45,420 nucleotides of DNA, taken from the NCBI GenBank assembly GCA_001873365.1, contig MNYZ01000097.1:1040-46459 (forward strand), read 5' to 3'. The position numbers and the translations under genes are program-made. This document shows, piece after piece, positions 15,177 to 21,949 of the stretch. Position 1 is the stretch's first letter. Every line of letters begins with the position of its first letter. The stretch comes from Oscillatoriales cyanobacterium CG2_30_40_61 (GTDB lineage: Bacteria; Cyanobacteriota; Cyanobacteriia; Cyanobacteriales; Microcoleaceae). The notes beneath the pieces were generated by a model, which searched no databases, was not told the origin of the DNA, and worked only from the letters and a program-made list of their open reading frames with translations.

Positions 15177-16226
15177 TTAATCAAATAAATAAATATTAAA
15201 ATAGAGAATAACTAAATAAGAAATTAGCCAGATGATTAAACTCAATTTAATTGTCGGATCTTGAATTAAAATCTGGCTGGGTTCTTCCCCATCGGCTAAA
15301 ACAGTAACTAACCATTTATAGTGCATCACCGCATAATAAACAATGGGAACTGTAATCACTAAAGAGGGATTTTTACCCGATTGGATTGTGAACAAAGCAT
15401 AGCACATAATGGTCATGGTTGCGGTGCTATTCAGGAGAGAATCTAAATAGGGTAAGGTATATTGGGAGAGAACTGGACGTTGTTGATTTTTGCTTCCCCG
15501 TTGATAGAATAACTCTAAATAGGAAGGTTCTGAATTGGGTGATTTTAGATCGGGCTGTAGGGAGGTTTCTGGATAAAAATTCTCTTGATTATTTTGAAGA
15601 TGTAATAAAGATAAAAGTTCTGAACGTCGTTTAGAAAATCCTAAAAATAGAGTTAGGAAAAACGTACATAAAACAATCCAAGCCGTCGGCATATCTCCTA
15701 AAGCATAAATTCCAGCTAACAGCCTCAGAACAAAACCAAAGGCAATACAACTAACATCAAATAAGGCTAAATTCTTGAGTTTTAGAGAATAAATAATATT
15801 ATTAATAGCATAGAGTAAAACACAAATAAATGTGGCTATTCCTAAGCTATAAGCACCCAAAAGAGAAACCGTTGTTAAACAGAATGCGATCGCTAATCCG
15901 ATTTTAATTGAAACTTGACCACTGGCAATCGGACGATACTTTTTTTTCGGGTGCAGCCGATCGCATTTTCGATCTTGAATATCATTAAAAATATAAATTG
16001 CCGATGCCATTAACGAGAAAAAAATTACCGTTAATATTGATAATAAAATAGACTGGGTTTCTAATAGTCTACCGCCGAATAAAAGTCCCGCCAAACAGAA
16101 TAGATTTTTTGTCCATTGATGGGGGCGAATTAGTTTAATTAAGGGGGGCAAAGTTGAGGATTTAACGGGTACAAATTCGGGATTAGTTTGATGATCATGG
16201 GTTTCTAATGGCTTTGGTATTTTCAT
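15177..16226 (-). CDS. UbiA family decaprenyl-phosphate phosphoribosyltransferase-like protein
   Basis: A 349-residue membrane protein with about nine helices. The aspartate-rich motif NDIQDRKCDRLHPKKKYRPI (residues 81-100) matches the DPPR-synthase type of UbiA (mycobacterial Rv3806c pattern NDxxDxxxDxxHPxKxxRPIAxG) rather than quinone or chlorophyll prenyltransferases. A second motif, GFSKRRSEL, corresponds to the GKRxxEL region. The known reaction transfers 5-phosphoribose from PRPP to polyprenyl phosphate at the cytoplasmic membrane. The N-terminal 25 residues are non-conserved and polar. A hydrophilic insert (about 205-240) separates helices. It is the last gene of a six-gene minus-strand run, 21 bp behind the SMR-like gene. 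Confidence 0.85.
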   Translation of the reverse strand: MKIPKPLETHDHQTNPEFVPVKSSTLPPLIKLIRPHQWTKNLFCLAGLLFGGRLLETQSILLSILTVIFFSLMASAIYIFNDIQDRKCDRLHPKKKYRPIASGQVSIKIGLAIAFCLTTVSLLGAYSLGIATFICVLLYAINNIIYSLKLKNLALFDVSCIAFGFVLRLLAGIYALGDMPTAWIVLCTFFLTLFLGFSKRRSELLSLLHLQNNQENFYPETSLQPDLKSPNSEPSYLELFYQRGSKNQQRPVLSQYTLPYLDSLLNSTATMTIMCYALFTIQSGKNPSLVITVPIVYYAVMHYKWLVTVLADGEEPSQILIQDPTIKLSLIIWLISYLVILYFNIYLFD

Positions 16227-16247
16227 GGGATTAAAACAATTAATTAT

Positions 16248-16610
16248 TTAACGAGACATAATAATAATTCCAGTAATAATTAAACCCAATCCGATCATTT
16301 GATTAAATCCAAAACGCTCCCCTAATAAAAGACTTCCGGTTAAGGCAACTAAGCTAAAACCAATGGCAGCAAACACGGGATAAGCAACAGAAACAGGTAA
16401 ACTATCAAGAGCTTTGGCAAAAACAATTAAATTAATTCCATAAACGATAATAGCTGCCAGAAACCAAGGGGATAATAACAGGGTTAATAAACCCGGGTCG
16501 GCGGCTTCTATTCGAGATTTTTTCAGCAATAAGTTACCAATTCCACTATTAATAGCGGCGATTAAAACCAAACTCCAGGAAATCCAGTTAATTGAGTTAA
16601 TGTTATTCAC
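16248..16610 (-). CDS. SMR-like four-helix membrane protein (possible lipid-linked sugar flippase subunit)
   Basis: 120 residues forming four hydrophobic helices in the small multidrug resistance/ArnE-F fold (final helix GLGLIITGIIIMSR; third helix SLPVSVAYPVFAAIGF). In drug exporters of this family a Glu in helix 1 (EmrE Glu14) couples to protons. Here that helix reads LIAAINSGIGNLLLKKS, without an acidic residue. This resembles ArnE/ArnF, which flip undecaprenyl-phosphate aminoarabinose. Located 9 bp behind the first SDR gene's stop and 21 bp before the UbiA gene, a role in flipping the polyprenyl-linked sugar is a reasonable inference, not proven. Confidence 0.8.
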   Translation of the reverse strand: MNNINSINWISWSLVLIAAINSGIGNLLLKKSRIEAADPGLLTLLLSPWFLAAIIVYGINLIVFAKALDSLPVSVAYPVFAAIGFSLVALTGSLLLGERFGFNQMIGLGLIITGIIIMSR

Positions 16611-16619
16611 AGTGTCTAA

Positions 16620-17645
16620 TTAAGATAGTTGTTTTAATACCCAAAGTAACTTTTCTTTCACCGGGCGACGATGGGCAGATCCGGCTTTTTCCGCTTGCAG
16701 TTGATTATAGTTGTTTTTGAACCAATCATAACTTTCCCGGAACATTTCATCATTAGAATATTTGGGTTTCCAGCCTAATTTTAGCAGAGGATCAACATCA
16801 AAATAAAATTCCTTATCATAGGTTAAATAATGCCAAGGAGCTAGGGGACTTAATCCCATCCAGTCTAACAGTTGTAAGGTTCCAATTGTTAATCCCGTGG
16901 GTAAACTTTTAACCTGAGAATCTGTGCCTGCATATTCAATTAAATGTTCTAATCCTTCTCGTAATGTGCCAAAGCGATCGCTTCCCACATTATAGATTCC
17001 TGGTTGACCCAAATCAAGAGCAAGCAGATAAACATCCATCAAATCATGAGCATGAACAAATTGAAATTGAACGTCACCACTGCCAATCACATAAACATTT
17101 TTTCCCTCTTGAATCCATTCAAATAATATCTGAAAAATCCCTAATCTACCTTCTCCTAAAATAGTCCGGGGACGAATTACAATTAAGGGTAAACCCCCCC
17201 GATCACAAATCTCTCTAACGGCTAATTCCCCCGCTAATTTTGCCCGTCCATAAATTTCAACGGCTTTAGGGGGGGTATTATTAGTAATCGGACATTTAGC
17301 ATCCCCAAATAGGGCGCTAGAACTCATGTGAATAAAACTCTTAACTCCGGCTTTTACTGCCGCTTCGGCTGCGATTTTACTGCCTTCTACGTTAACTTCC
17401 CAAAACTTATTCCCTGATTTTGTTAAGGGAACTAAAGCCACATTATGATGGACAATATCAATGTCTTTCATGGCTTTTTCTACCCGATCGCGATCGCGAA
17501 TATCACAATTAATAAATTCGATCTCTGGGGGACGGGTTAAATCTTCCCAAATATCTAAAATTTTGACATCTTCCCCCCGTTGATACAATCGTCTTGCAAT
17601 TAAATTGCCTAAAAATCCCGATCCTCCGGTAATTAAATGTTTCAT
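16620..17645 (-). CDS. NAD-dependent epimerase/dehydratase (extended SDR)
   Basis: 341 residues. The Rossmann motif GGSGFLG (7-13) at the N-terminus binds NAD(P); Asp48-Ile (CDIR) contacts adenine; the catalytic triad is Ser in HMSSSALFG (about 109), Tyr132 and Lys136 (YGRAK). The C-terminal half carries substrate-binding features of sugar-nucleotide epimerases (VGSDRFGTLREGLEHLIEYAG). No membrane helix is present. The last 40 residues (basic, RRPVKEKLLWVLKQLS) may form an amphipathic membrane-contacting helix. It is inside the UbiA/GMC cluster, so its substrate may be a polyprenyl-phosphate pentose or its keto intermediate. Family is certain, substrate is not. Confidence 0.85.
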   Translation of the reverse strand: MKHLITGGSGFLGNLIARRLYQRGEDVKILDIWEDLTRPPEIEFINCDIRDRDRVEKAMKDIDIVHHNVALVPLTKSGNKFWEVNVEGSKIAAEAAVKAGVKSFIHMSSSALFGDAKCPITNNTPPKAVEIYGRAKLAGELAVREICDRGGLPLIVIRPRTILGEGRLGIFQILFEWIQEGKNVYVIGSGDVQFQFVHAHDLMDVYLLALDLGQPGIYNVGSDRFGTLREGLEHLIEYAGTDSQVKSLPTGLTIGTLQLLDWMGLSPLAPWHYLTYDKEFYFDVDPLLKLGWKPKYSNDEMFRESYDWFKNNYNQLQAEKAGSAHRRPVKEKLLWVLKQLS

Positions 17646-17758
17646 GGTTTTATTGTTGATTTAAAAACTATTTTAAAATTGATAAAATCTGATTATATTA
17701 TACACTAAAAACAGACAATAATAAATCAGATATTTTGCCATATAATCTAATTCTGATA

Positions 17759-18868
17759 TTAGTCTAATCCTCCATAATTCTCAAAGATCCATTTTAGGCT
17801 TTTTCTCATTCCTTCTTCTAAAGCAATTGTGGGATTATAACCTAATTCCCGTTGAGCTTTAGTAATAGAAACAGCAATGGTTTTATTCATTTCTGAGAGG
17901 ACATGAATTTTTTGATGATAAAATCCTAGGGTTTGTAATGTTCCGTCAACAACTAAAGCAATTTCACTGGCTAAACCCGGTAATTTTAAGCGTTTATGGG
18001 TGCAAGATTGTTGAAATTCCGTTTCTAATAAATGTTCTATTGTCTTAATAATATCATTCATTGAGTAGGATTGTTTATCAGCTATCCAATAGGTTTGTCC
18101 GTTGGCTTTTTCGGTGATTGCTGCTAATATTAATCCTTGACAAATATTATCCACATAAGCAATAGATCGTAAATTATTCCCATCTCCAACTATTGGCCCC
18201 TTTCCATCTCTAATCATCTTAAAAAATAGGGTTTGACGCTGGGGTTGATGGGGGCCATAAAACCAAGGAGGACGGATAATAACTGTTTCAATTTTACCCT
18301 GTTGCTGATAGTGATTTACAGCTAATTCCATTAACATTTTTGAACGTCCATAGTTCATATAGGGATGATAGGGAGAGGTTTCATCAAATAAATGATCGGG
18401 ATGGGGATTACAACCACAGGGAGAATTTGAAGATACAATAATCGCTCGTTTTATCTTAGCAGAAATGGCGGAATTTAATAGATTTTTAGTTCCTTCGACA
18501 TTGATTTGATAAAATTCTGATATTTTTTGCGGGTGAATAATTCCGGCGGTATGAAATAAAAGAGCATTTTCAGAATTTTCGCAAAAGCGATCGCAATCTT
18601 GGGGATTTCTTAAATCTCCTTGATAAACTTTTATTTGATCCGATATTTTATTTAATACCGTTGGGTCTTGATTCGGTAAAATTAAACAGCGAATTTTTAA
18701 ATTATTTTGAGGTTGACCTAGGGGTTTAAAATCTGCCAATCCTTTAACTAAAGATTCTACTAAATTAATTCCTAACCAACCTAATGCACCCGTGATCAAA
18801 ACTAAATCCGTCTTCAACTTCAGACCCCCTTGCTTTCTTTGTGTCTTCGTGACTTTGTGGTTTTTCAA
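17759..18868 (-). CDS. NAD-dependent epimerase/dehydratase (3beta-HSD-like extended SDR)
   Basis: A second extended SDR of the cluster, distinct from the first. Rossmann motif TGALGWLG (26-33), DLRNP (85-89), catalytic Ser in VSSNSP (about 147), Tyr173 and Lys177 (YGRSK), then RPPWFYGP. It resembles the 3beta-hydroxysteroid dehydrogenase-type subgroup. Start is uncertain: the first 15 codons (MKNHKVTKTQRKQGG) come from a dispersed repeat (18832-18865). A TTG at 18817, eight bases behind aggggg, would start at LKTDLVLITG and fit the family better. If so, the protein has 352 residues. It starts 30 bp (81 bp with the later start) after the GMC gene. Confidence 0.82.
   Translation of the reverse strand: MKNHKVTKTQRKQGGLKLKTDLVLITGALGWLGINLVESLVKGLADFKPLGQPQNNLKIRCLILPNQDPTVLNKISDQIKVYQGDLRNPQDCDRFCENSENALLFHTAGIIHPQKISEFYQINVEGTKNLLNSAISAKIKRAIIVSSNSPCGCNPHPDHLFDETSPYHPYMNYGRSKMLMELAVNHYQQQGKIETVIIRPPWFYGPHQPQRQTLFFKMIRDGKGPIVGDGNNLRSIAYVDNICQGLILAAITEKANGQTYWIADKQSYSMNDIIKTIEHLLETEFQQSCTHKRLKLPGLASEIALVVDGTLQTLGFYHQKIHVLSEMNKTIAVSITKAQRELGYNPTIALEEGMRKSLKWIFENYGGLD
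18832..18865. repeat. dispersed ctttgtgtc-type repeat, copy 2
   Basis: Reads tttctttgtgtcttcgtgac then tttgtggttttt. It overlaps the first codons of the SDR gene if the longest frame is used, so it affects choice of start. Confidence 0.7.
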
Positions 18869-18898
18869 AGCGCAACAATAGACGATAATGTTAACAGA

Positions 18899-20368
18899 TT
18901 AATTCCGTAAAAAGTTTAACACATTTCGACGGGCGATCGCCATAATTGAACCTTGGGGATTGACCCCGGGTGCGGTACAAAGTAAACTAGCATCTGCAAT
19001 ATATAAATTATTGAATCCATGAACTTTACCAAAGGAATTAACCGCACATTTTTGTAAATTTTCTCCCATGGGACAAGAGGAAAAAACGTGAACTGTCATT
19101 AAGTTAGTTTGTTTTATAGGAAGTTGTTCTGGGATTTTAGCTAAATCCTGGGAATTGGTCAAGGTGAAACTATTAGAAATACTAGGATAAAGAATTTTAG
19201 CATCCGCTTCAAATAATAATTGAGCTAGTTTTTGTAATGCTTCTGATAAATCTTTTAAGTCTTGAGATGTTAATTGATAACGAACTAAAGGATCACGATA
19301 AAAGGGAATATTTCGCACCGTACCATAACCTTCCCCTGTAATCATAGCATAATAAATTGCCATTTTTTGCCAATTTTTTTGGACTTCTTCTGTATATTCA
19401 GGATGGTCAGTCATTCCCACGGATAAATAGGGCGGAGAACTAATTGAACACCCAAAACTAAATTTAGGAGAAAATTCCTTAACTTGATGGACAGGAACTC
19501 CCATATCCAAGGTGTTAATATCTTGATCAAATTGAGCAATTATTTTAACTGTCGGGTGCATTCTTAAAGCATTACCAATATTATTTTTAATTCCACTTCT
19601 TCTTAATAAAGCTGGGGTTTGAATTGCGCCACAACAAACAAATATTGTTTCCGCTTGAATTTCTATTAGTTGTTTAGGAGACTTATTAACTTGATAATAA
19701 CCTGTTAAACTCCAATTATTATGATTTTGATTAATATTTTTAACCCAGGTATTTGCTAATAATTTGCATCCAGCTTTTAATGCTCTGGGAATAAAGGTTT
19801 CTGTCATTGATTGTCGAGTTCCTTTAGGGATTGCGGTTTCATCTAATTCTTGATAACGAAACCAGCGAGGAACTTCTAAAGATTGCCAATTTAAACGGGT
19901 CGCGCCTTCCTGTAATTTTAAGGAAGCAGTGGGAGCTTTTCCTGGTAAATAACAAACATTAACCGCTTGTTCGCAGGCTTCAAAATGAGGAATTAAATCG
20001 GCTTCTGTTAAAGATTCTACTTCAAATTCTTGACTCCATTGTGCTAGAATATTAGGGGGTGTACGGTGATATAATCCACTATTAATTTCACTTCCCCCTC
20101 CCACACATCTACCTTCAACATATTGAACTTTGGGTTGACCAAAAGCTGCTGTTAGACCGCCATTACGATATTTTTGAGTCATTTCTACAACGGAAAAAGG
20201 TTCACAGGATTCTAATGGTAAATATTCACCTTCTTCAATTAATAAAACATCCCGCCCAGCTTCAGCTAATAAACAGGCGGTAATTGCTCCTCCTGGGCCA
20301 GAACCAATCACGGCAATTTCAACTTTTAAAGGAGATGCAGATGGGGAAATTAGGTTAGATTCAGACAT
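18899..20368 (-). CDS. GMC family FAD-dependent oxidoreductase
   Basis: 489 residues. The FAD-binding Rossmann motif is GSGPGG (22-27) with EEGEYLPL closing the ADP site. The GMC N-terminal signature region reads GRCVGGGSEINSGLYHRTP. The C-terminal GMC block contains VHVFSSCPMG (His427), GKVHGFNNLYIADASLL, and VNPQGSIMAIARR with the Asn-Pro pair at about 470. GMC enzymes oxidise alcohol groups of sugars, sterols or alcohols. Soluble, but probably membrane-associated through its small partner encoded 8 bp upstream. In this cluster it may oxidise the lipid-linked ribose, as DprE1 does in mycobacteria, though it is from a different family. That link is inference. Confidence 0.85.
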   Translation of the reverse strand: MSESNLISPSASPLKVEIAVIGSGPGGAITACLLAEAGRDVLLIEEGEYLPLESCEPFSVVEMTQKYRNGGLTAAFGQPKVQYVEGRCVGGGSEINSGLYHRTPPNILAQWSQEFEVESLTEADLIPHFEACEQAVNVCYLPGKAPTASLKLQEGATRLNWQSLEVPRWFRYQELDETAIPKGTRQSMTETFIPRALKAGCKLLANTWVKNINQNHNNWSLTGYYQVNKSPKQLIEIQAETIFVCCGAIQTPALLRRSGIKNNIGNALRMHPTVKIIAQFDQDINTLDMGVPVHQVKEFSPKFSFGCSISSPPYLSVGMTDHPEYTEEVQKNWQKMAIYYAMITGEGYGTVRNIPFYRDPLVRYQLTSQDLKDLSEALQKLAQLLFEADAKILYPSISNSFTLTNSQDLAKIPEQLPIKQTNLMTVHVFSSCPMGENLQKCAVNSFGKVHGFNNLYIADASLLCTAPGVNPQGSIMAIARRNVLNFLRN

Positions 20369-20376
20369 GATAATTA

Positions 20377-20748
20377 TTAGATAGAATCTAAAGATTTTAT
20401 ATAATCAGATTGCCAATATAATACCACTAGACTTTCATAAAACCTGATCAAGTCTCGGCAAATTTGCCAGGGGGAATTTTTCCAGGCTTGAATTAGCTGT
20501 TGACGTACAGATGGCGATTGAGAATGGAAGAATAAACCTGTACACAGCAGTCCCCAAATATCAAAAATTAATGTTAAAATTAATAAAGGTAATCTCAGAT
20601 AATCCGGCATTCGATTATGTTGTTCGATGACAAAATTAACCGCGGAATTATTAGGAAAATGCTGGAGAATTGGAGAGGATTTAAACCGATAATCAATCAA
20701 AGAATAACACAGGGCGGAGACTGTAATTGTAAAAAAATGTTTAATCAT
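20377..20748 (-). CDS. small protein, possible partner of the GMC oxidoreductase
   Basis: 123 residues with one strong hydrophobic stretch (about 55-76, YLRLPLLILTLIFDIWGLLCTGLFF) and a C-terminal helical part, WKNSPWQICRDLIRFYESLVVLYWQSDY. The pattern W..SP....RDLIRFYESLxxLY resembles small or N-terminal helical domains that go with GMC dehydrogenases (gluconate 2-dehydrogenase subunit 3-like); this is a weak pattern match. It lies 8 bp upstream of the GMC gene, which supports a two-subunit enzyme. It may anchor the oxidoreductase at the membrane. It is the first gene of the six-gene run; its upstream region is shared with divergent thiO. Confidence 0.6.
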   Translation of the reverse strand: MIKHFFTITVSALCYSLIDYRFKSSPILQHFPNNSAVNFVIEQHNRMPDYLRLPLLILTLIFDIWGLLCTGLFFHSQSPSVRQQLIQAWKNSPWQICRDLIRFYESLVVLYWQSDYIKSLDSI

Positions 20749-20827: not shown

Positions 20828-21949
20828 ATGCAGCAACATAGTGAAATTATTCTAATCGGTGGCGGTTTGATTGGCTTGTCCCTCGCCGTTGAGTTAAAAT
20901 GCAAAGGGGCTACGGTCACGGTTTTGAGTCGGGACGTCCAAGAAGCGGCGGGTTTAGTCGGGGCGGGAATGTTAGCACCCCAAGCCGAACAACTTCCCCC
21001 TGGCCCGATGCTAGAATTGTGTTTACGCAGTCGCGCCCTCTACAATGACTGGACGCGCAAACTGGAGGAAATCACCGGGTTAGATACGGGATATTGGCCC
21101 TGTGGTATCTTAGCTCCGGTTTATGAACGTCCGCCCTGTACCCGTTTAGAAGCCACTCCAGACACTCCCAGCCATTGGTTAGAGTCCGAAGTCATTTTAC
21201 AGCAACAACCCGGCTTAGGGGATGATGTTGTGGGGGGTTGGTGGTTTCCCCAGGATGGTCAAGTCGATAACCGTCGGGGGTTAATTAAAATATTAAAAAC
21301 GGCGGCGACTGTATTAGGAGTTAAAATAATTGAGGGAGTTACGGTAGAAAAATTGGTGATTTCTCCTAATCAAATTATCACAGAAATTGTGACAAATCAA
21401 GGTAATTTTAGAGCGGATCATTATATTTTAACGGCGGGTGCTTGGTCGGGACAATTGTTATCAATTCCCGTATATCCGAGGAAGGGACAAATGTTATCGG
21501 TGCGGGTTCCAAAATCGGTTAAATCTTTACCTTTAAAACAAGTTTTATTCGGTTCAGATATTTATATTGTGCCGCGTCGAGATGGTTTAATTGTGATTGG
21601 AGCTACATCGGAAAATGTTGGTTTTAACTCCGGTTTAACCCCGAATGGAATTGAACATTTACTATCAGGAGCTATGCGATTATATCCAGTTTTAAAAGAG
21701 TTTGAAATTGAAGAATTTTGGTGGGGATTTCGACCGGAAACCCCGGATTCAATGCCCATATTAGGCCAGAGTTCTTGGCAAAACTTAACCCTAGCAACTG
21801 GTCATTATCGGAATGGGATTTTATTAGCTCCGGTTACGGCTCAATTAATTTCTAATTGGGTCTTAAATCAACAATATGATCCGTTATTAAGTTATTTTAA
21901 AGGCGATCGCTTCCGGTGTTCCGGTGTTCCGGTGTTCCCTAGTATATGA
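20828..21949 (+). CDS. thiO: glycine oxidase (ThiO)
   Basis: 373 residues. FAD-dependent D-amino-acid-oxidase fold that oxidises glycine to iminoacetate for the thiazole ring of thiamin. FAD motif GGGLIG (11-16), followed by the ThiO pattern AAGLVGAGMLAPQAEQLPPGPM, and C-terminal GFRPETPDSMPILG and TGHYRNGILLAPVTA. In many cyanobacteria ThiO is fused to ThiG; here the chain ends right after the ThiO domain with RCSGVPVFPSI, encoded by an 8-bp tandem repeat, and no ThiG follows. The stop overlaps the start of the next gene (ATGA), so the two may be translationally coupled. The oxidase domain itself seems complete. Confidence 0.87.
   Translation: MQQHSEIILIGGGLIGLSLAVELKCKGATVTVLSRDVQEAAGLVGAGMLAPQAEQLPPGPMLELCLRSRALYNDWTRKLEEITGLDTGYWPCGILAPVYERPPCTRLEATPDTPSHWLESEVILQQQPGLGDDVVGGWWFPQDGQVDNRRGLIKILKTAATVLGVKIIEGVTVEKLVISPNQIITEIVTNQGNFRADHYILTAGAWSGQLLSIPVYPRKGQMLSVRVPKSVKSLPLKQVLFGSDIYIVPRRDGLIVIGATSENVGFNSGLTPNGIEHLLSGAMRLYPVLKEFEIEEFWWGFRPETPDSMPILGQSSWQNLTLATGHYRNGILLAPVTAQLISNWVLNQQYDPLLSYFKGDRFRCSGVPVFPSI
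21911..21937 (+). repeat. 8-bp tandem repeat (ttccggtg) x3 in the 3' end of thiO
   Basis: Three copies of ttccggtg and a partial fourth are in frame with the last codons of thiO, giving RCSGVPVF. Since 8 is not a multiple of three, loss or gain of a unit changes the C-terminal reading frame. Confidence 0.9.

Follow-up and report, generated by a model that had tools for sequence, protein, structure and literature searches.

What does a cyanobacterium make with six adjacent genes that combine a UbiA-type prenyltransferase homolog with three putative redox enzymes? The question is raised by Oscillatoriales cyanobacterium CG2_30_40_61, in which a stretch of 45,420 nucleotides from contig MNYZ01000097.1 (the window, whose coordinates are used throughout) encodes, on one strand, a UbiA-family protein, an SMR-family membrane protein, two extended short-chain dehydrogenases/reductases (SDR-A and SDR-B), a GMC-family oxidoreductase and a small helical protein. 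Judging from protein families, the site for phosphoribosyl pyrophosphate (PRPP), gene co-location, gene fusions and the exchange of modules among related genomes, all of them observed in sequence, we consider it likely that the product of this cluster is a pentofuranose, different from ribose, carried on polyprenyl phosphate, and that it is formed by a module that would act like mycobacterial DprE1/DprE2 and is composed of unrelated enzymes. The sugar that we favor, with somewhat less than even confidence, is D-arabinofuranose; the three redox enzymes of the locus would be compatible with other products too. The features are as follows.

15177..16226, minus strand: UbiA-family polyprenyl-phosphate phosphoribosyltransferase (PPPRS, DPPR-synthase type), predicted; 349 aa (NF008977, PDB 8j8j, PRPP-site residues, tree)
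16248..16610, minus strand: small SMR-family membrane protein and flippase candidate for the lipid-linked pentose; 120 aa (PF00893)
16620..17645, minus strand: SDR-A, extended SDR, candidate second epimerase or reductase; 341 aa (PF01370)
17646..17758, minus strand: remnant (deletion scar) of a DUF218-family gene (blastn against L031)
17759..18868, minus strand: SDR-B, extended SDR, proposed keto-sugar reductase partner of GMC; 369 aa, TTG start (alignment, tree distances)
18899..20368, minus strand: GMC-family FAD oxidoreductase, proposed polyprenyl-phosphate-ribose oxidase; 489 aa (PF00732 and PF05199)
20377..20748, minus strand: small all-helical protein, GMC partner; 123 aa (fusion to GMC, AlphaFold2 model)

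The initial annotation had described six minus-strand genes across 15177-20748, and the list of open reading frames (ORFs) reproduces its coordinates and gaps (21, 9, 113, 30 and 8 bp, from low to high coordinate). The families it had named are all matched over the Pfam cut-off: PF01040 for the UbiA protein (86.5 bits, cut-off 34.2), PF00893 for the SMR protein (50.7 bits, cut-off 23.7), PF01370 (Epimerase) for the two SDRs (140.6 and 105.6 bits, cut-off 20.9), and both PF00732 (105.5 bits, cut-off 23) and PF05199 (68.4 bits, cut-off 24.6) for the GMC protein. Pfam and NCBIfam scans assigned the small protein to no family. Promoter-like sites number 38, more than in shuffled sequences (mean 22.7, standard deviation 5.8); terminator-like sites, 3 against 4.5, are not in excess.

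The UbiA protein is the proposed first enzyme. Its best NCBIfam model is NF008977 (decaprenyl-phosphate phosphoribosyltransferase; 232.8 bits), and because the score is below the cut-off of 234 we place the protein in the wider PPPRS clade only, not under the equivalog name. The best PDB match is 8j8j (Rv3806c, E 9.7e-31). We transferred the PRPP- and Mg-binding residues of Rv3806c, as named in the available text of the structure paper (PMC10994848), through a pairwise alignment: nine PRPP-site residues are identical in the window protein (R22, K28, Y70, N73, D77, K87, R90, Y138 and K143), and three positions differ (Q135 is Asn, Y157 is Phe and K208 is Pro). All of the nine except K87, which is kept in 52 of 55, are invariant in the 55 UbiA proteins of such clusters, the window copy included. 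The motifs NDIQDRKCD, HPKK and RPIASG are present, as the initial annotation had reported. The four other UbiA proteins of the same genome that were aligned (a fifth, L005, was outside the alignment) have part of the residue set, which limits the specificity of the residue test; K28 and the complete set of eight are missing from all four. In a tree of 67 sequences, with the window protein included twice and L005 and Rv3806c not included, these four fall outside the cluster clade (support 0.966), so the protein does not group with them, as a quinone or heme prenyltransferase might have been expected to. The source genome is Planktothrix-like, and nine relatives of the same genus have UbiA proteins 82-94% identical to the window protein. 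Taken together, these data assign the protein, by sequence, to the polyprenyl-phosphate phosphoribosyltransferases (PPPRS/DPPRS).

The GMC protein has the hallmarks of the GMC oxidoreductase superfamily, namely both Pfam domains, the FAD motif and the two residues H427 and N470, which we take to be the catalytic His and Asn; GxGxxG, H427 and N470 are invariant in all nine aligned sequences. In 16 of the 74 loci described below, the small protein is fused to the GMC N-terminus (a separate count gave 15 ORFs longer than 400 aa). Its AlphaFold2 model (predicted local distance difference test, pLDDT, 90.3) consists of six helices, in keeping with the earlier description of a small helical protein, and to this we add a predicted role as GMC partner. 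No PDB fold matched the model at E <= 0.001, and of 40 members of the small-protein family one matched PF13618 (gluconate 2-dehydrogenase subunit 3; E 0.0048) and the others did not. In a Rhizobium gallicum plasmid the GMC gene is split (L024:6977-8499), which could reflect sequencing error or real loss.

Both SDRs conform to the extended-SDR pattern TGxxGxxG plus YxxxK, with TGGSGFLG and YGRAK in SDR-A and TGALGWLG and YGRSK in SDR-B. SDR-A is about 43% identical to its rhizobial counterpart in three plasmids. The true start of SDR-B is probably near codon 15-18, since codon 15 is where its relatives start in the alignment and codon 18 is the next TTG of the window. SDR-B is frameshifted in an Arthrospira genome (L107:9998-11055), which again could reflect sequencing error or real loss. 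By blastn, the 113 bp gap between the SDR genes matches the DUF218-family gene of L031 in two places, its 3' end and an internal stretch of 40 bases (80%, E 1e-4); this remnant adjoins the end of SDR-B directly, and relatives, other Planktothrix among them, retain a DUF218-family gene at the same place (PF02698, 30.1 bits for the L029 copy). A protein search, run without a positive control, found no match to the DUF218-family protein in the source genome at E <= 0.01. A DUF218 homolog is also located within the Polynucleobacter cluster (L110:7312-7860). The SMR protein is closest in NCBIfam to ArnE, a subunit of the 4-amino-arabinose lipid flippase, at 39.8 bits and below the cut-off of 92.

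How widely are these genes kept together? A search with an SDR-B profile of one genome per species returned 74 loci, in which partners were counted within 8.5 kb; 48 of these are well covered, having 6 kb or more of sequence to either side of SDR-B. By record title, the 74 loci come from cyanobacteria, Verrucomicrobia, Planctomycetes, Bryobacteraceae, Deltaproteobacteria, Desulfovibrio, Deferribacteraceae, Helicobacteraceae, Polynucleobacter, Aquimarina, Actinomycetota and rhizobia. Near SDR-B we counted GMC in 64 loci, SDR-A in 63, the small protein in 57, UbiA in 53 and SMR in 24 (44, 46, 41, 37 and 19, respectively, of the 48); eleven well-covered loci do not have the full core (L049, L053, L058, L066, L070, L076, L093, L095, L112, L114 and L115). 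The genes are thus conserved together, a point that the initial annotation had put up for checking, and because the set is co-located in several phyla the array is more than chance. The set is not peculiar to cyanobacteria. A divergent gene for a DAO-family flavoprotein (20828-21949) lies 79 bp upstream of the small-protein gene; such a gene is near the cluster in eight loci, the window included, all in the Planktothrix genus group.

A DxDGT motif indicative of a HAD domain precedes the UbiA part in 25 of the 49 best UbiA proteins. The domain was confirmed by Pfam in L023, and the HAD-UbiA model PRK08238 scores 617.5 bits for L023 and 671.9 bits for L052 (cut-off 351). Both fusions, of small protein to GMC and of HAD phosphatase to UbiA, would fit the pathway proposed below.

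The set is also plasmid-borne. GMC matches occur in 25 records of a plasmid collection, and SDR-B matches at E <= 1e-40 in nine, all rhizobial and identical with the nine best GMC matches. We inspected three of the nine: all six genes are present in NGR234 and R. gallicum, and the region of Mesorhizobium japonicum shows four; there, SDR-B is at the opposite end of this circular record, and UbiA was not looked for. The three non-rhizobial GMC regions inspected, from Embleya, Alteromonas and Deinococcus, show no other core gene. A search of a phage collection for a comparison system gave one short unannotated match.

To compare the histories of the four large proteins, we correlated tree distances for the 43 loci that have all of them. 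GMC and SDR-B correlate at r 0.92 and the five other pairs at 0.30-0.48, with UbiA at 0.30-0.44; none of 999 permutations reached any observed value. As the sequences have common ancestry, only the contrast between pairs is informative, and it suggests that GMC and SDR-B behave as one evolutionary unit while SDR-A and UbiA are exchanged more freely.

Does the GMC module occupy the place of DprE1/DprE2? Among 98 genomes (the source genome and 97 relatives), GMC is found in 16 and a PPPRS-type UbiA in 23; the latter is present in 15 of the 16 GMC genomes versus 8 of the 82 others (Fisher p 4e-11, not corrected for relatedness), and the sixteenth GMC genome, G037, has its GMC on a contig of 3,109 bases. 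The 23 UbiA genomes comprise 15 with GMC, three with DprE1, four with a HAD and an SMR-like ORF, and one with UbiA and SMR only, which is 73% complete and has both genes near a contig end.

The DprE1 model NF053785 exceeds 400 bits (417-490) in three genomes, all below the cut-off of 500 and none with GMC. In these three (G061, G073 and G085) the oxidase is within 5 kb of the PPPRS-type UbiA (L153:8509-17608, L155:2306-9629 and L156:6914-9918), two of the loci have large membrane proteins, and each oxidase adjoins a classical SDR; the two of these SDRs that were scanned score 184 and 189 bits on the DprE2 model (cut-off 250). We predict these three loci to be a mycobacterium-like arabinose donor route in cyanobacteria. 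A further 86 genomes have weaker NF053785 matches, which probably represent other flavoproteins; the strongest of these, at 78.8 bits and interrupted by a stop, is in Okeania G021 (L164, G021:C112:39349-39909), which has a GMC cluster, and is possibly a decayed DprE1 or another flavoprotein. The source genome has no NF053785 match at E <= 0.001. The ALO domain is found in nine of the 98 genomes, none with GMC.

The four HAD-type loci (L154:4552-7236, L157:8414-10287, L158:2197-4052 and L159:8057-10082) combine the PPPRS with a HAD ORF and with an ORF of about 112-119 aa named SMR-like by eye. Pfam confirmed the HAD assignment in L154 and L158, and the single HAD ORF scanned with NCBIfam belongs to the YqeG family. 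This compact set is probably a lipid-linked ribose route. In the UbiA tree, one clade (support 1.0, inner support weak) mixes GMC-linked members from Okeania, Brasilonema and Scytonema with two of the three DprE1-linked and the four HAD-linked members, and the third DprE1-linked UbiA groups with Helicobacteraceae (support 0.823). The earlier suggestion that GMC and an SDR stand in for DprE1 and DprE2 gains from this pattern, in which both modules accompany the same type of UbiA in different cyanobacteria. On the simplest reading, one lipid-linked ribose would feed three alternative routes: unchanged, DprE1/DprE2 or GMC/SDR.

The pathway that we propose would begin with transfer by the UbiA protein of ribose-5-phosphate from PRPP to polyprenyl phosphate. 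A phosphatase, which in about half of the relatives would be the HAD domain fused to UbiA, would then take off the 5'-phosphate. Held by the small protein, perhaps at the membrane, the GMC flavoenzyme would oxidize a ribose hydroxyl of polyprenyl-phosphate-ribose, most likely at C2, and SDR-B would reduce the keto intermediate with inversion, so that the two would do the job of mycobacterial DprE1 and DprE2 with unrelated proteins. SDR-A could make a further change to the sugar or serve as an alternative reductase. The SMR protein is the candidate for flipping the donor to the other side of the membrane. The pentose may then be put on a glycan by a GT-C-type transferase whose gene is outside the cluster. 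The individual reactions and their order, like the identity of the sugar and of its acceptor, are our inference from these comparisons.

Which transferase might use the donor? The initial annotation had noted no glycosyltransferase adjacent to the cluster; this is so in the window but not in some relatives, which have candidates. Arthrospira and a single Planktothrix-type genome have large membrane proteins of one family, 705-719 aa long, of which other genomes have shorter relatives. A second family is broken inside the cluster of two Planktothrix (L029:11761-12453 and L030:11533-12226) and complete in two more members of the genus (L048:10164-11795 and L036:12328-13974), and further large membrane proteins are in or beside the array in Verrucomicrobia and rhizobia; no homology was found between the cyanobacterial and rhizobial ones. 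A profile comparison against six PMT_2 proteins of the source genome (five over the Pfam cut-off, one just under) supports a GT-C assignment for two of five candidate families (91% and 62%; controls below 1%), and for neither the 705-719 aa family, the rhizobial family nor the family beside DprE1. Long membrane-protein ORFs are near the core in 34 of the 74 loci. Among long ORFs located in the core or no more than 2 kb from it, 43 of 123 are membrane proteins, versus 26 of 115 farther away (p 0.045); the enrichment is weak because the ORFs were called mechanically. Two of the candidate families have relatives in the source genome, on contigs C53 and C119. One source-genome relative of the large membrane protein family, 31-44% identical (L160:6645-8384), is a candidate user of the donor; its neighbors, named by eye, are nucleotide-sugar and glycosyltransferase-like genes.

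Several observations weigh against the proposed pathway. The UbiA protein is 1.2 bits short of the curated NF008977 cut-off, does not keep K208 of Rv3806c and has Asn for Q135, and each of the four other UbiA proteins of the genome has 5 or 6 of the eight invariant residues. UbiA is within 8.5 kb in only 37 of the 48 well-covered loci, and tree distances of UbiA and SDR-A follow those of SDR-B poorly. The window has only remnants of the DUF218-family gene, two relatives have a frameshift in either SDR-B or GMC, and the rhizobial small protein is linked to the family by iterated profile only, pairwise BLAST giving no match. The window cluster encodes no glycosyltransferase and no 5'-phosphatase. 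The GT-C assignment of the neighboring membrane proteins is weak: the candidates scanned have no Pfam or NCBIfam match over cut-off, and the structure model of one is of low confidence (mean pLDDT 56.9), with no Foldseek match at E <= 0.001 and its matches not used.

It is quite possible that the pathway runs as described toward another sugar, such as xylofuranose, lyxofuranose or a C5-oxidized or otherwise modified pentose. Three redox enzymes are present here, compared with two for arabinose (DprE1/DprE2) and one SDR for xylose in the systems described in the main text of PMC11127046. Moreover, SDR-A is near SDR-B in 46 of the 48 well-covered loci and resembles sugar epimerases (95.9 bits on the HpnA model, cut-off 367.65; UDP-glucose 4-epimerase at E 9e-20 in the PDB, ranked second after an SDR of no named function), and some cyanobacteria already have a DprE1/DprE2-type module. 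According to the same text, arabinose and xylose need one inversion and lyxofuranose two (PMC11127046). A specific form of this alternative, which we consider unlikely, is polyprenyl-phosphate-D-lyxofuranose or some other pentofuranose in which two carbons are inverted or altered; in the lyxofuranose case C2 and C3 would both be inverted, one by the GMC/SDR-B pair and the other by the GalE-like SDR-A as epimerase. Against it, that text reports lyxofuranose in no solved carbohydrate structure (PMC11127046), and there is no known product. If correct, it would imply a surface sugar new to solved bacterial glycans and common to cyanobacteria, Verrucomicrobia and rhizobial symbiosis plasmids.

An improbable alternative divides the cluster: UbiA and SMR would make and flip lipid-linked ribose, and the small protein, GMC, SDR-B and SDR-A would form a separate, often adjoining pathway. 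Consistent with this, UbiA is missing from 11 of the 48 well-covered loci, its tree distances correlate modestly with those of the others (see above), four cyanobacteria have UbiA with a HAD and an SMR-like ORF and no GMC, and in three relatives (G008, G011 and G013) UbiA and SMR are apart from GMC. However, L049 and L115, two of the eleven, belong to G011 and G013, which have UbiA elsewhere in the genome, and the association across the 98 genomes (15 of 16 versus 8 of 82) argues for one pathway.

We hold it very unlikely that a quinone, heme or aromatic compound is the substrate that UbiA prenylates, with GMC and the SDRs modifying a terpenoid or sterol. The GMC family does include cholesterol oxidases, both SDRs exceed the cut-off of the 3Beta_HSD Pfam model, and the partial residue set of the other UbiA proteins is compatible with it; the best family and PDB matches of UbiA are phosphoribosyltransferases, however, all 55 cluster UbiA proteins and none of the four others have K28, the residue that contacts the 5'-phosphate in Rv3806c, the tree separates them, and the HAD motif precedes the UbiA part in about half of the 49 proteins counted. 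That the array is a chance assembly with a drug exporter as its SMR protein has almost no credibility, for although all but the small protein belong to large, versatile families, the array is conserved in several phyla, with fusions.

Returning to the proposed lipid-linked pentofuranose, how does the cluster compare with known systems? The main text of PMC11127046 describes three-component pentofuranose systems of Citrobacter youngae O1/O2, with PRPP entry, dephosphorylation, epimerization, proposed flipping and GT-C transfer. The present set shares with them the PPPRS, the HAD phosphatase domain (in relatives), entry through lipid-linked ribose, auxiliary epimerases and, as candidates only, a flippase and a GT-C transferase, but has the small protein with GMC, two extended SDRs and SMR where Citrobacter has a MATE flippase and one SDR (xylose) or DprE1/DprE2 (arabinose) (PMC11127046). 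The terms 'GMC', 'oxidoreductase' and 'cyanobacteri' are absent from that main text. Lipid-linked pentofuranose systems are thus already published (PMC11127046), and what appears new here is the GMC/SDR module; open-licence full texts, which do not cover subscription papers, yielded no description of a GMC-based pentofuranose route.

The mycobacterial decaprenyl-phosphoryl-arabinose pathway (Rv3806c, Rv3807c, DprE1, DprE2 and Rv3789) starts with an enzyme of the same clade, whose PRPP site is largely shared, and the likeness extends to the SMR flippase candidate and the logic of an oxidase with an SDR. In the cyanobacterial relatives scanned, DprE1 is FAD_binding_4 and DprE2 a classical SDR, unlike the GMC and extended SDRs of the window; because the oxidase is GMC and both SDRs match PF01370 best, they are not members of DprE1/DprE2, though they may work alike. 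In rhizobia, the available texts describe noeC, noeH and noeO of Nod-factor arabinosylation as orthologs of mycobacterial pathway genes (PMC5080398, PMC2443382). The noeCHOP/noeCNHOP operon is likewise a lipid-linked pentose route (PMC5080398, PMC2443382), whereas the cluster that we found on rhizobial plasmids has the GMC module instead. The pNGR234a cluster (NGR_RS31055-NGR_RS31085) shares with the window a UbiA (HAD-fused in this case), two SDRs, SMR, the small protein and GMC, and differs in an extra membrane protein of 658 aa and in having two convergent gene groups instead of one. We take these genes to be y4nG-y4nM; no relevant paper was found by gene name, nor any assigned role for the rhizobial plasmid copies in open-licence full texts, and GMC genes of Mesorhizobium are mentioned in another context in the literature available.

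DprE1 is a major tuberculosis drug target. If the proposed pathway is correct, an unrelated set of enzymes replacing DprE1/DprE2 at the same point would be a clear case of non-orthologous displacement and an example of how lipid-linked pentoses are diversified in bacteria. SDR-B together with the small protein and GMC may then serve as a bioinformatic marker for undescribed surface glycans in several phyla, with a reach that includes bloom-forming cyanobacteria and nitrogen-fixing symbionts.

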